Below are positions 2,923-17,737 of a stretch of 20,792 bases of DNA, one piece after another. Within the stretch, counting starts at the first letter, position 1. Each line of letters begins with the position of its first letter. The translations under genes and the position numbers were made by a program. Under the pieces are notes generated by a model. It was given only the letters and a program-made list of their open reading frames with translations. It made no database searches and was not told the origin of the DNA. Source of the DNA: a virus; the IMG/VR virus record IMGVR_UViG_3300042472_000684, positions 1 through 20,792 of that record; one strand, given 5' to 3'.

Positions 2923-3581
2923 TTTTCTTTTATTATTTCTGAATAGTTTTTCTCAAATTTACTACTTATATTCATTCTAAATAGAATTAAAAATATCAAA
3001 TTGTAAGGTAATAACTCAACTTCCCTATGTGTATATTTGTAATCCTTAGCAATTAGGTCAATAGTATTAAAATCCCCTAATTGATTAAACATATCTATAC
3101 CCGCTCTTTTTTGTTCTTCTGTTGTACTAGATTCAAGTGCATTATTATCACGTTCAACTATTGCGTTTATACTTTCTAATAGGTACAAATAAGCCCCGTA
3201 AACGTCTTCTATGTTATCCTGTAATATGATTTGTTCATCTATATCACTATAGACGCTTAAAATCTTTGTAGGACTATCTAAATTTGTAAACGCTTGTATC
3301 TTCTTTTCAAAGGTACACTCACCAATATCACTCGGTAATTGAACACCATTATAAAAATCTAGTTTTTCTAGTGTTTCAAATGGATTTTCCTGCAGGAACT
3401 CGATGTAAGGTACTATATCATTCAAGTCAATAAATACCTGTTCATCTATTGTCAAACCTGTCAATCGTTCTATAATTTCACTTTCACTAGCATCCTTAAA
3501 GAAGTCTATATCACTGCATTTAATATCCCTCCATGAAGTTGGAATAGTGAAGTCTTTTAGTTTAGTTTTAAATCGTATCAT
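2919..3581 (-). CDS. Hypothetical protein, possible tail-assembly chaperone, 220 aa
   Basis: The N-terminus reads FTIPTSWRDIKCSDIDFFKD and is followed by EIIERLTGLTIDEQVFIDL. This pattern (a beta strand with PTSW, then a short helix measuring a 'level', then ERLTGL) resembles the Bacteroidetes phage proteins often considered tail-assembly chaperone-like. The C-terminal half is acidic and helical (LIAKDYKYTHREVELLPYN), also usual for that group. It starts as an ATGA overlap with a 46-codon gene just upstream. Assignment as chaperone is a moderate-confidence family impression. No ribosomal frameshift product, as seen for lambda G/GT, is evident. Confidence 0.7.
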   Translation of the reverse strand: MIRFKTKLKDFTIPTSWRDIKCSDIDFFKDASESEIIERLTGLTIDEQVFIDLNDIVPYIEFLQENPFETLEKLDFYNGVQLPSDIGECTFEKKIQAFTNLDSPTKILSVYSDIDEQIILQDNIEDVYGAYLYLLESINAIVERDNNALESSTTEEQKRAGIDMFNQLGDFNTIDLIAKDYKYTHREVELLPYNLIFLILFRMNISSKFEKNYSEIIKEK

Positions 3582-8804: not shown

Positions 8805-9010
8805 AATATATGTGCTTTTAAAAGTTCTATTACTAATTTTTGTCCTTTAACGAAATCACTATCGATATTTATTCCGTTAATGATTCTGTCGAAATCGTTA
8901 ATTAATCTTACTAGACTTTCTAGTTTTGACTTGTCGTTTACTAATTTGCTTTCTCCTGTTGCGTAATTAGTTTTAAACTCTGCTTTTAAATTGGGACTTG
9001 GGTAACTCAT
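8801..9010 (-). CDS. Hypothetical protein, 69 aa
   Basis: The first gene of the recombination operon, preceded by 61 A/T-rich bases that carry a promoter-like -7 box and a palindrome. The 69-residue product (MSYPSPNLKAEFKTNYATGE..., then an acidic helical LVRLINDFDRIINGINID) has no recognisable motif. The ATG at 9010 lacks a Shine-Dalgarno. It ends in an ATGA overlap. Being first in an operon next to a possible operator could suit a regulator, but no HTH is visible. Confidence 0.65.
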   Translation of the reverse strand: MSYPSPNLKAEFKTNYATGESKLVNDKSKLESLVRLINDFDRIINGINIDSDFVKGQKLVIELLKAHIL

Positions 9011-11788: not shown

Positions 11789-11982
11789 TCTTTTGCTTCT
11801 ATTTTAGTGTCGTACATAATTATATCCTTTCTAATCAATCCAAGTCTAAATATTGATTCTTGTAAACTATATATTAAATCTATTCTATTTGGATGATTTT
11901 CTTTTATCCATTCAATTGAATCTCTATATTTAGCTATTATAGAGTCTATCTTTTTAATTGCTATTATGCTATCTATTGTCAT
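11773..11982 (-). CDS. Small helical protein, 69 aa
   Basis: I prefer the internal ATG at 11982-11980 (MTIDSIIAIKKIDSIIAKY) over an in-frame ATG at 12009, because it makes the ATGA overlap with the SF3 helicase stop that is standard here; the longer version would add nine residues. The protein is a string of amphipathic helices, with IEWIKENHPNRIDLIYSLQE in the middle and an acidic end. It could be a coiled-coil partner of the next small protein. Function unknown. Confidence 0.65.
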   Translation of the reverse strand: MTIDSIIAIKKIDSIIAKYRDSIEWIKENHPNRIDLIYSLQESIFRLGLIRKDIIMYDTKIEAKEWMES

Positions 11983-13415
11983 AATCCTTGTAATTGTGGT
12001 GAATCCCATATATCCTTTTGCTCTTCATTATTATAACTTTTACTAGCTTCAAACATGATCTTTGTAATACCTCCAGCTGTTGTTGTGTGGTATTTAATTC
12101 CGTAGTGTTTAGCATAGGACTTCAAACCAATGGTTAAGCTATTTTGTTTATACCACTTTCTTAATTCAGGATAAGCGTTTAAAAAGTTATCATAGATGGT
12201 TTTTACATTTACCCATTCGTTGTTTGGAATGGAAGGTATAAAGGTATGTAATTCAGCGCTTATTTTATCAATTAGCTTTCTAATCTCTAAATTCTTTGTA
12301 TTACTTCGAACCAATCCGTGATTTAAATATTTACGTAAACATTCCATCATGTAATTATCAAACCTTGCCCACTCTTCATTATCCCAATCGTTAAATAATT
12401 TATTACCAAAAAACATTTCAGGAGTGTAATCTGCATTAAAAAACGTTGACATTTCAACTTCAAACTTCCTAGCTTCATGACTACCGCCATCACCTTTGAT
12501 AGTGTAGTTAGTTGTAATTATAATCTTTGGGGATTCCTCAACACTTAAACGGATAGCATCCTTGCCTTTATATTCTATACAAATACCCTCCGTAATTACA
12601 CTGAATAATGATTCAAAGCTAAAATTCCTTTCAACGTCGTCAAATACCAATATTTGGCAGTCAGTAGATACATTTTGATAAGGAAATGATTTATTAAAAG
12701 TAAACGTTTTTCCATCCAAAGACTGCACATTTTTAATTTGTTTTAAGGCATTCCAAATTAATCCCTTACCACTTCTTCCGTTTGGATTGTCGCTTATCAT
12801 TTCATCGTTAAATATGATAGCTCTATTGTTTGAATTAGTCTTATATGAATGAAGTAAGTAACCTAAAACAGATTGCAAAGTGTTGTAACGTTCTACATCT
12901 TCACCGCTTACTTTCCAAACAAAAGTTCTAAATTGTGATTGGTGATGGTCTGCTTCAATAAAATCCCTATCTATAACTTGTTTCTTCCAAATAGAAATAT
13001 TTACATCTTTATAATCTATTATTTTACGTTCGTTTTTTGTAATGTTTACGATGCAATTATTGTAAAAAAAGTAAGCATTATCTTTATCGTCTTTCATTAC
13101 TTGAATTTCTTTTGTAGAAATCATAGAAAGAAAGTCCCGTTTGAAATACTTAAGGTTGCCACTCATTAAATTGTAAACGCCTATACCTAAATCGTTATCT
13201 TCAACATAATTTAAAATAAAGTCTTTTAAATCGGTTTCATCTTTAATCTCTAAAAATATCCCATTCTTTTTTATAATGTTAAACGTACTATTTGCATTTG
13301 GTTTGTTTTTAAAATAGTCATGTTTTTCTAAAAACTTTTTAAAAAGGTAGTTATTAAGGTCAATTTTCCCGTTCTGGTTTACGGACCAAAACGGCATTAA
13401 ATTATTATCATTCAT
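11979..13415 (-). CDS. SF3/D5-like replication helicase, 478 aa
   Basis: The central ATPase core shows NPNGRSGKG (Walker A, residues 210-218, K217), ILVFDDVERN (Walker B, D259/D260), KIIITTNYT (motif C, sensor N303) and HEARKFEV with R316 as possible arginine finger. These are the hallmarks of superfamily 3 / phage D5-type helicases that unwind DNA at the origin. The N-terminal 200 residues are not recognisably a primase (no zinc finger or DxD seen), so priming may come from the host or an unrecognised domain. The C-terminal part resembles a winged-helix tail (VKTIYDNFLNAYPELRKWYKQ). It is the only obvious replication protein in the window. Confidence 0.88.
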   Translation of the reverse strand: MNDNNLMPFWSVNQNGKIDLNNYLFKKFLEKHDYFKNKPNANSTFNIIKKNGIFLEIKDETDLKDFILNYVEDNDLGIGVYNLMSGNLKYFKRDFLSMISTKEIQVMKDDKDNAYFFYNNCIVNITKNERKIIDYKDVNISIWKKQVIDRDFIEADHHQSQFRTFVWKVSGEDVERYNTLQSVLGYLLHSYKTNSNNRAIIFNDEMISDNPNGRSGKGLIWNALKQIKNVQSLDGKTFTFNKSFPYQNVSTDCQILVFDDVERNFSFESLFSVITEGICIEYKGKDAIRLSVEESPKIIITTNYTIKGDGGSHEARKFEVEMSTFFNADYTPEMFFGNKLFNDWDNEEWARFDNYMMECLRKYLNHGLVRSNTKNLEIRKLIDKISAELHTFIPSIPNNEWVNVKTIYDNFLNAYPELRKWYKQNSLTIGLKSYAKHYGIKYHTTTAGGITKIMFEASKSYNNEEQKDIWDSPQLQGL

Positions 13416-16826: not shown

Positions 16827-16855
16827 AATTATTTAAATTTATATTTTTCATATGC
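16825..16855. repeat. Direct repeat copy B (31 bases, about 29/31 identical)
   Basis: See copy A at 16085-16115, 740 bases away. This copy lies at the end of the HNH/AP2 gene. Recombination between the two would delete the 164-residue gene, the nonsense pseudogene and the endonuclease scrap. Confidence 0.7.
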
Positions 16856-17083
16856 GTGGTATGCCAACAATTCACAATTAAATAATCCTAAATGATAGTT
16901 CTTTTTATTAATGCTTATTTTTGCAGTCCATTTATTTGCTTTTTTATCCCAACTTACTCCTTTATATTGACTTGAATATTTGCCTTGAGTTTTATACGCA
17001 TTAAATCTAGTTGTTACAATTTGTAAGTTTTCAACTCTGTTATCTAATTTGTCATCGTTTATATGATCGATTACTAACTTCAT
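16829..17083 (-). CDS. HNH/AP2 homing endonuclease, C-terminal part, 84 aa
   Basis: Reads KLVIDHINDDKLDNRVENLQIV (HNH core: D6-H7, N15, N19), followed by RFNAYKTQGKYSS and an AP2-type DNA-binding module SQYKGVSWDKKANKWTAKIS...YHLGLF ending LAYHAYEKYKFK. An intact family member would also have an N-terminal NUMOD4 and the first catalytic His. Here the reading frame extends upstream in the same phase (VHQLVAEAFLNHIPNG) without a start codon and meets a TGA at 17162. The ATG at 17083 is therefore probably internal and the gene is truncated. Homing endonucleases of this type cleave DNA to spread themselves; activity here is doubtful. Confidence 0.7.
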   Translation of the reverse strand: MKLVIDHINDDKLDNRVENLQIVTTRFNAYKTQGKYSSQYKGVSWDKKANKWTAKISINKKNYHLGLFNCELLAYHAYEKYKFK

Positions 17084-17209
17084 TCCGTTTGGGATATGAT
17101 TTAAAAATGCTTCAGCAACTAATTGATGTACTGTTCTAGTTATTCCAATGCTGTTTTTCCATCATAATTTGTTTAAATGCAAAAAGCCATCTTCAAAAGG
17201 TGCCTGAGA
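17084..17209 (-). pseudogene. Upstream remnant of the HNH endonuclease with in-frame TGA
   Basis: In the same frame as the 84-residue HNH/AP2 part, the minus strand reads KNSIGITRTVHQLVAEAFLN down to 17084, a TGA at 17164-17162, and upstream of that QAPFEDGFLHLNKL. V-H-Q-L-V-A-E-A-F is the standard first half of an HNH_3 domain and contains its first catalytic His (codon 17128-17126). The TGA could be a CGA to TGA change. A TAA lies further upstream and no NUMOD4 module is found, so the gene is 5'-truncated. Confidence 0.55.
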
Positions 17210-17260
17210 AAACCTTTATCGGATAGCTTTTTAATAAATTCTTTTATGAAGTTCTCAGGC
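17181..17260 (-). ncRNA. Possible structured leader RNA with competing pairings
   Basis: In minus-strand RNA starting near 17263, GCCTGAGAA (17260-17252) is an exact complement of TTCTCAGGC (17210-17202). The second element also lies in the loop of a short hairpin AAAGGT/ACCTTT (17217-17212 with 17201-17196). So either a long-range 9-bp stem or a loop-to-upstream pseudoknot can form. An additional AAAAAGC/GCTTTTT match (17232-17226 with 17187-17181) also crosses the long-range stem. The structure is read by eye with no folding calculation, and part of the region overlaps the endonuclease remnant. Confidence 0.4.
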
Positions 17261-17269
17261 TTCGGTGTA

Positions 17270-17277
17270 CAAATATA
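17270..17277 (-). promoter_or_regulatory. Promoter -7 box TATATTTG before the replication region
   Basis: The minus strand reads TATATTTG at 17277-17270, fitting TAnnTTTG, placed just upstream of the structured leader. A good -33 TTG at 17 to 23 bases is not evident. It is the best candidate start for the transcription unit that carries the endonuclease relics, helicases and methyltransferases. Confidence 0.4.
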
Positions 17278-17374
17278 AATCAAATATTCTTTACTTGGTT
17301 TACTTATTTGAAAAAATATCGTTATTTATATTGATTATAAATAAAAAGTAGAAAAGGTATAAAATTTTTTGAAA

Positions 17375-17667
17375 ATGTAGAAAGTTGTACGTTTTGTAAC
17401 TTGTTGATAATTACCAAACTAGAGAAAGTTGTAAAACTTTGAAAATCATAAAACGTTGATAATCACCGAAAGTAATGAAAGTTTTGCAAAAATTCACTTT
17501 TTATTTTTTTTTATTGTTTTAACGCAATATAGGCAAAATACTTTCTACATTTCATTACTTTCGGTGATTATCAATAACTTAACCTGTTTTCAAGTTTTTC
17601 AAGTTTCATTTAAATCTTTGATAATCAATATTGATTTTAGAACGCGAAGTTTTACAAGTTTCTACAT
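17375..17667. repeat. Large, nearly concentric inverted-repeat region, candidate replication origin
   Basis: No convincing gene is seen between the terminator at 17668 and the leader at about 17277. An outer arm ATGTAGAAAGTTGTA (17375-17389) matches, inverted with one mismatch, 17653-17667. An inner perfect 25-base arm lies at 17456-17480 and 17550-17574. The two dyads share nearly the same centre (about 17515 and 17521). Short words recur: TTGATAATYA four times (17404, 17456, inverted 17565-17574, 17618), ATGTAGAAA three times, and AGAAAGTTGTA twice (17379, 17423). A 12-base palindrome ATCAATATTGAT sits at 17624-17635. Iteron-like words and a dyad beside a helicase operon suggest an origin; a decayed mobile element is the alternative. 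Confidence 0.6.
17456..17574. repeat. Perfect 25-base inverted repeat with 69-base A/T-rich spacer
   Basis: The arms are 17456-17480 and 17550-17574, identical when one is inverted, beginning TTGATAATCACCGAAAGTAA. The spacer (17481-17549) is very T-rich on the plus strand and carries a palindromic TTTTGCAAAA at 17482-17491. Flanks extend imperfectly (ACTTTGAAAA on one side against ACTTGAAAA inverted on the other). Confidence 0.85.
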
Positions 17668-17699
17668 AAAAAAACTCCTACCATTTACGATAGGAGTTT
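17668..17699 (-). terminator. Strong intrinsic terminator of the small-gene operon
   Basis: In the minus strand AAACTCCTA (17699-17691) pairs with TAGGAGTTT (17680-17672) around a ten-base loop, and T7 follows at 17674-17668, partly overlapping the stem end. This is a textbook intrinsic terminator, placed just past the stop of the last small gene at 17738. Confidence 0.85.
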
Positions 17700-17737
17700 A
17701 CACGTTTTATTTTTATGTGAAGATTTTCCGATTTTCT

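Follow-up and report, generated by a model that had tools for sequence, protein, structure and literature searches.

What does the palindrome-rich interval ahead of the SF3-helicase operon of this phage do, and which of its parts have relatives kept? The initial annotation of the window (the whole 20,792-nt stretch of DNA analysed here) described a large nested palindrome with recurring words, offered it as a candidate replication origin and named a decayed MITE-like element as the alternative. The window's main genes all lie on the minus strand, where the order from 5' to 3' is terminator (17699-17672), word array, promoter box, leader and operon. The features needed first are the following:

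17672..17699, minus strand: predicted intrinsic terminator of the upstream operon (12-bp stem, loop of 4, T-run)
17300..17667, no strand assigned: AT-rich dyad/word array with repeats, candidate origin or operator array, at the same place in L043-L057
17375..17389, plus strand: outer inverted-repeat arm ATGTAGAAAGTTGTA
17653..17667, minus strand: partner outer inverted-repeat arm
17456..17480, plus strand: 25-nt arm, unchanged in L046 at the aligned place
17550..17574, minus strand: 25-nt arm, differing at at least 2 positions in 7 of 7 aligned relatives
17481..17549, no strand assigned: A/T-tract core, conserved on its operon-distal side (minus strand, TGTAGAAAGTATTTTGCCTATATTGCGTTAAAACAATAAAAAAAAATAAAAAGTG)
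16829..17083, minus strand: HNH-AP2 homing-endonuclease remnant (PF13392, PF00847), first gene after the leader
11979..13415, minus strand: SF3 helicase (phrog_28855; DUF5906 in relatives), with a C-terminal winged helix modelled

The palindromic architecture is present as first reported. The perfect 25-nt inverted repeat lies exactly at 17456-17480/17550-17574, the enclosing 15-nt repeat (17375-17389/17653-17667) is in place with a 93% match, and the words said to recur do so: TTGATAATYA occurs four times in the region and five times in the window, and all three window copies of ATGTAGAAA and both of AGAAAGTTGTA fall inside the region. The longest perfect inverted repeat was 14 in 200 dinucleotide shuffles of 17300-17700, against 25 in the real sequence, and 11-16 in shuffles of the whole window (n = 5); the palindromes and repeated words far exceed chance. 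Additionally, 17424-17607 aligns to its own inverted orientation at 68%, and the region, folded as single-stranded DNA as had been proposed, gives a strong fold (z = -8). The surroundings are likewise as described, with a terminator-like hairpin on one side (17672-17699, minus strand) and the helicase about 4 kb downstream on the other, and the statement that no gene lies inside holds apart from a sole open reading frame, a 98-codon plus-strand frame running opposite to the coding direction.

Comparison with relatives separates the parts of this array that are kept from those that are not. With the SF3 helicase as query, 41 loci were recovered from IMG/VR, and an alignment-based helicase scan gave 491 relatives, 80 of which were kept. 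Upstream of the SF3-helicase operon the array holds its position in about a dozen relatives (L043-L057), among which the flanking genes are exchanged on both sides (an exonuclease with a 72-aa gene, PAPS reductase, HNH, methylase/helicase). Conservation in the aligned relatives is good across the minus-strand left half and in the A/T core, and the right half is rewritten, so the proposed alignment of homologous regions bears out the words and the core but not the perfect 25-bp palindrome: no aligned relative has the perfect arm pair, and when the 25-bp stem was tested on eight sequences, 59% of cells were paired and covariation was not in excess. A cruciform conserved through its stem was also considered, and was rejected on the lack of covariation in relatives. 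Judged by these alignments, the conserved part of the array is the words and core rather than the perfect palindrome. Five of seven relatives, including L046, have TTGATACTCATAGAAAG at the site where the window has TTGATAATCACCGAAAG, and the remaining two (L052, L050) are also unlike the window there; since the window version matches the opposite arm, the comparison suggests that the perfect palindrome is recent and arose by copying of one arm onto the other. In L203 the locus appears to lie in the opposite orientation.

The MITE-like alternative is very improbable. Terminal inverted repeats would suit such an element; however, the window holds no second copy, 50,697 phage records hold none, and 11 viral contigs carry the arm sequence, almost all of them placed by leader fitting at one and the same locus. 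As far as these collections reach, the alternative is excluded, dispersed copies having been found in none of them.

An origin of replication is a possibility to be taken seriously, to which we give somewhat less than an even chance. The winged-helix SF3 helicase or a partner would bind the dyad/word array, the A/T tract would unwind, and the leader RNA described below would simply be the leader of the adjacent operon. Repeated words and an AT-rich core beside a replication gene form the layout of an iteron origin, and the array stays beside the helicase operon though its neighbours have been swapped. The structure model of the helicase has a winged helix at its C-terminus and models the SF3 ATPase core poorly; its best fold matches are poxvirus D5/E5 and the SaPI5 primase-helicase, at E 0.017 or worse. 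The window helicase has 478 aa and is without the N-terminal primase part of its 778-801-aa relatives (L058, L060). There is a precedent in pRN1, for whose type of primase/SF3/winged-helix replication protein the reported origin is a large stem-loop of 100 bp (PMC4234260). The likeness lies in a large stem-loop near the gene for such a protein, with a 21-nt stem and 58-nt loop in pRN1 (PMC4234260) against 25 and 69 here; the one in pRN1, however, is downstream of the gene and has a structurally conserved stem, whereas the present one is upstream and its exact stem is not kept in relatives.

The cumulative GC-skew profile proposed as a check gave a divided answer. In G004 (36.5 kb, end-repeated) the minimum falls at 3526, on the element, where gene direction also switches; in G005, G006 and the window all genes run one way and the skew is monotonic, tracking the genes. 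As a test of origin function GC skew was therefore rejected, being confounded with gene direction. This, a 25-bp stem that relatives do not maintain and the weak upstream dyads of distant relatives speak against the origin claim.

More tentatively, the array may be an operator region, in which a regulator on the repeated words would control the promoter behind them and, in L054/L055, also a divergent recombination-operon promoter. In these two the upstream genes are divergent, with the ERF annealing protein first, a left-facing TAACTTTG box and a flip in the sign of GC skew, and the words stand in both orientations at 100-300 bp or less from the promoter. However, the array exceeds the usual length of an operator, a neighbouring repressor gene is not conserved, and most relatives are without the divergent operon. 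The array is a candidate origin or operator region, with evidence that does not decide between the two, and origin function is plausible.

Between the dyad and the operon, just outside the interval initially annotated and missed there, lies the strongest conserved feature nearby, a leader RNA on the minus strand at 17180-17263 (17180-17277 including its box). It was found by comparing flanks, where a TATATTTG box is followed by interleaved stems whose sequence changes and whose pairing stays constant. Its predicted parts are:

17270..17277, minus strand: TATATTTG, Bacteroidota-type -7 promoter box
17180..17263, minus strand: kissing-loop leader RNA, whole, about 85 nt
17248..17263, minus strand: hairpin P1 (GAAG/CTTC), whose loop holds S1a
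17252..17260, minus strand: S1a, GCCTGAGAA
17180..17233, minus strand: hairpin P2 (12 bp) with inner stem P3 (17212-17217/17196-17201) and a terminal T-run (17181-17185)
17202..17210, minus strand: S1b, TTCTCAGGC, in the P3 loop and complementary to S1a

The order in the leaders is a -7-like box, P1, an AU-rich linker, P2/P3 ending in a U-run and the first start codon, and the loops of P1 and P3 are complementary over 7-9 bp. In the window GCCUGAGAA is complementary to UUCUCAGGC, a word with only these two sites in the window, and when the window strand is left to fold freely in a thermodynamic model, P1 and P2/P3 form and each S1 word lies in a loop. P1 has only 4 bp here, and the window leader matches the covariance model weakly (20.5 bits, E 1.5), although it is still the window's best match and in the right place. 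The box resembles the Bacteroidota -7 consensus; read by eye, TAnnTTTG precedes 15 of the 19 leaders found without a box anchor, and in the scan of 61 further relatives, which was anchored on the box, its frequency is partly a matter of construction. No conserved -33 element was seen among the leaders, and a sigma-70 promoter scan, at chance level, was discarded.

Conservation of this leader extends well beyond the close relatives. An architecture scan with no promoter anchor recovered this structure ahead of the helicase in distant relatives, and 50 kb of shuffled sequence gave nothing. The scores of 26 leaders, 53-75, all exceed those of the 20 shuffles made of the leader in question. In an alignment of 11 relatives made by MAFFT on sequence only, 99% of cells are paired and 21 of 28 pairs have changed on both sides, with a covariation of 0.66 against 0.24 in shuffles (0 of 500 reaching it) and 0.05-0.17 when slid; the loop-loop helix alone is 100% paired, with six of its eight pairs changed on both sides. 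By our own count about 42 of the 61 further helicase relatives have a convincing leader, many of the others having little upstream DNA. The 50 distinct leaders carry 41 different S1 words, and their carriers share only 40-60% helicase identity. TTTT stands at the edge of P2 in 48 of the 50, some U-runs being weak (e.g., L078), and an ATG follows P2 within 2-29 nt in all 50; judged from N-terminal sequence, the first gene is often a primase or helicase. No Rfam family was matched at gathering score, with only chance-level matches at a lenient threshold, and searches of open-access papers brought up no description of such an RNA. As measured in these alignments, the covariation suffices for defining a new RNA family, widely conserved and, as far as Rfam and the open-access literature go, previously undescribed.

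In host genomes the covariance model gave a single credible match, which lies on a short contig, plus a chance match among 200 genomes of a family; among helicase loci in genome collections one leader was found, in an Ignavibacteria MAG contig. No convincing leader was found at the Cytophagales MAG and Psychroflexus helicase loci or in the named phages MW202828.1 and Leef_1.

Some leaders have the loop word a third time, as S1c. In 10 of 51 leaders a stretch of S1a 6 nt or longer is found again in the 40 nt that follow P2, compared with 1.5% of mismatched leader/downstream pairs; for a stretch of 7 nt or longer the figures are 6 of 51 and 1 of 2468 mismatched pairs. The independent cases number fewer than 10, since L046, L143 and L164 share one related cassette and L117/L122 another. 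S1c mostly abuts the start codon (CATCCAC-ATG in L131; also L122, L060, L046, L143, L164, L118 and L119). The window leader has no S1c, so this start-codon component does not apply to it.

Taken together, these observations lead us to read the intergenic region, with a probability of roughly 0.55, as a replication-operon control region in which the leader is a self-pairing transcription attenuator beside the candidate origin or operator array. A stem with a U-run stands between the predicted promoter and the first gene, as in attenuators, and three features suggest attenuation: the U-run behind P2, the pairing of the loops and the position immediately ahead of the start codon. The leader RNA probably sets how strongly the replication genes switch on; promoter, termination, pairing in cis or trans and regulated read-through are all predictions from sequence. 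P2/P3 would serve as an intrinsic terminator, so that most transcripts would end as short leader RNA and a fraction would read into the operon. S1b, in the terminator loop, could pair in cis with the S1a of its own leader or in trans with that of a second one; in the fifth of relatives that have S1c, this copy at the start codon would be a further possible partner. Such pairing would couple primase/helicase expression to the amount of leader RNA, and hence to phage copy number, with negative feedback and possibly superinfection immunity as the outcome. At the word array the SF3 helicase or a partner protein might assemble to start replication, or the array might be an operator for the adjacent promoters; array and leader are linked by position only, and the origin and attenuator explanations are mutually compatible.

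In the seven closest leaders S1 changes at a rate of 0.30, against 0.15 at unpaired sites and 0.00 in P1 and P3, and one phage contig (L072) carries two leaders, at 8939 and 14237, with different S1 words. Words that change faster than their scaffold, and two different words in one genome, point to base-pairing specificity.

Two other readings of the leader have to be weighed. It is unlikely to be a stand-alone trans-acting small RNA or an origin primer RNA instead of an attenuator: a complete, predicted promoter-RNA-terminator unit does adjoin the candidate origin, but a start codon 2-29 nt behind it in every case fits a leader, and S1c sits at start codons. Still less probable is a leader that binds a protein altering RNA polymerase or the ribosome, by antitermination of the HK022 put type or by translational repression. 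Such binding could explain the AU-rich linker near AAAGAAATTATTA (17234-17247 in the window), which is the best-conserved unpaired sequence across leaders; the loop-loop words, however, vary freely with compensation, and loop sequence is not conserved.

Several known systems resemble the attenuator as read here. Replication-protein leaders of IncB/IncI-type plasmids form loop-loop pseudoknots; as in these, two leader segments kiss ahead of a replication gene and the loop words are changeable, whereas here no counter-transcribed antisense gene was identified and a U-run follows the second hairpin. The packaging RNA of phi29 has complementary loops in one RNA that could pair between molecules, and intermolecular pairing is equally conceivable here, but location, terminator and leader position differ and no phi29-type packaging system was seen. 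In the immunity of satellite phage P4 (CI RNA, seqA/seqB/seqC), an upstream word, a leader word and a downstream word are described ahead of the primase/SF3-helicase operon, in whose untranslated leader premature termination has been proposed (PMC4825925). All leaders here have a leader word complementary to an upstream word, and 10 of 51, the window not among them, a complementary downstream word too. Unlike in P4, the complementary word lies here in the loop of an intrinsic-terminator-like hairpin that kisses another hairpin loop, and the phages with the leader appear to be ordinary tailed phages; the likeness to P4 is one of layout, and CI-type processing and immunity would be conjectural here. 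Given the P4-like order of words before a primase/SF3-helicase operon, our leading guess is negative feedback or immunity; the pairing partner in the cell and the effect are both part of that guess.

A bolder form of this guess, which we consider doubtful, is a new class of RNA self-recognition in Bacteroidota phages, in which every phage has a loop word of its own: the leader of a resident or replicating phage would pair with nascent leaders bearing the same word and shut the replication operon, and the words would define incompatibility or immunity groups. The leader is a candidate replication switch for a large uncultured phage group, apparently of Bacteroidota (491 helicase relatives in one scan), a host phylum in which phage gene control is little known. 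Should the words work in trans, the sequence would reveal the immunity groups. The loop words permit direct tests by breaking and then restoring the pairing.

The gene content behind the leaders adds some minor observations. L046, L143 and L164 have closely similar leader cassettes despite strongly differing helicases, which suggests that the leader has been exchanged horizontally among them. An endonuclease of NUMOD4/HNH type is repeatedly the first gene behind the leader (L046, L054, L060, L072 at 14237, L164). In the window the first ATG behind the leader encodes MMEKQHWNN and then a stop, and the HNH-AP2 gene (16829-17164, minus strand) looks decayed, its HNH frame being without the usual N-terminal part; leader and HNH together resemble the L072 cassette at 72-75% identity.
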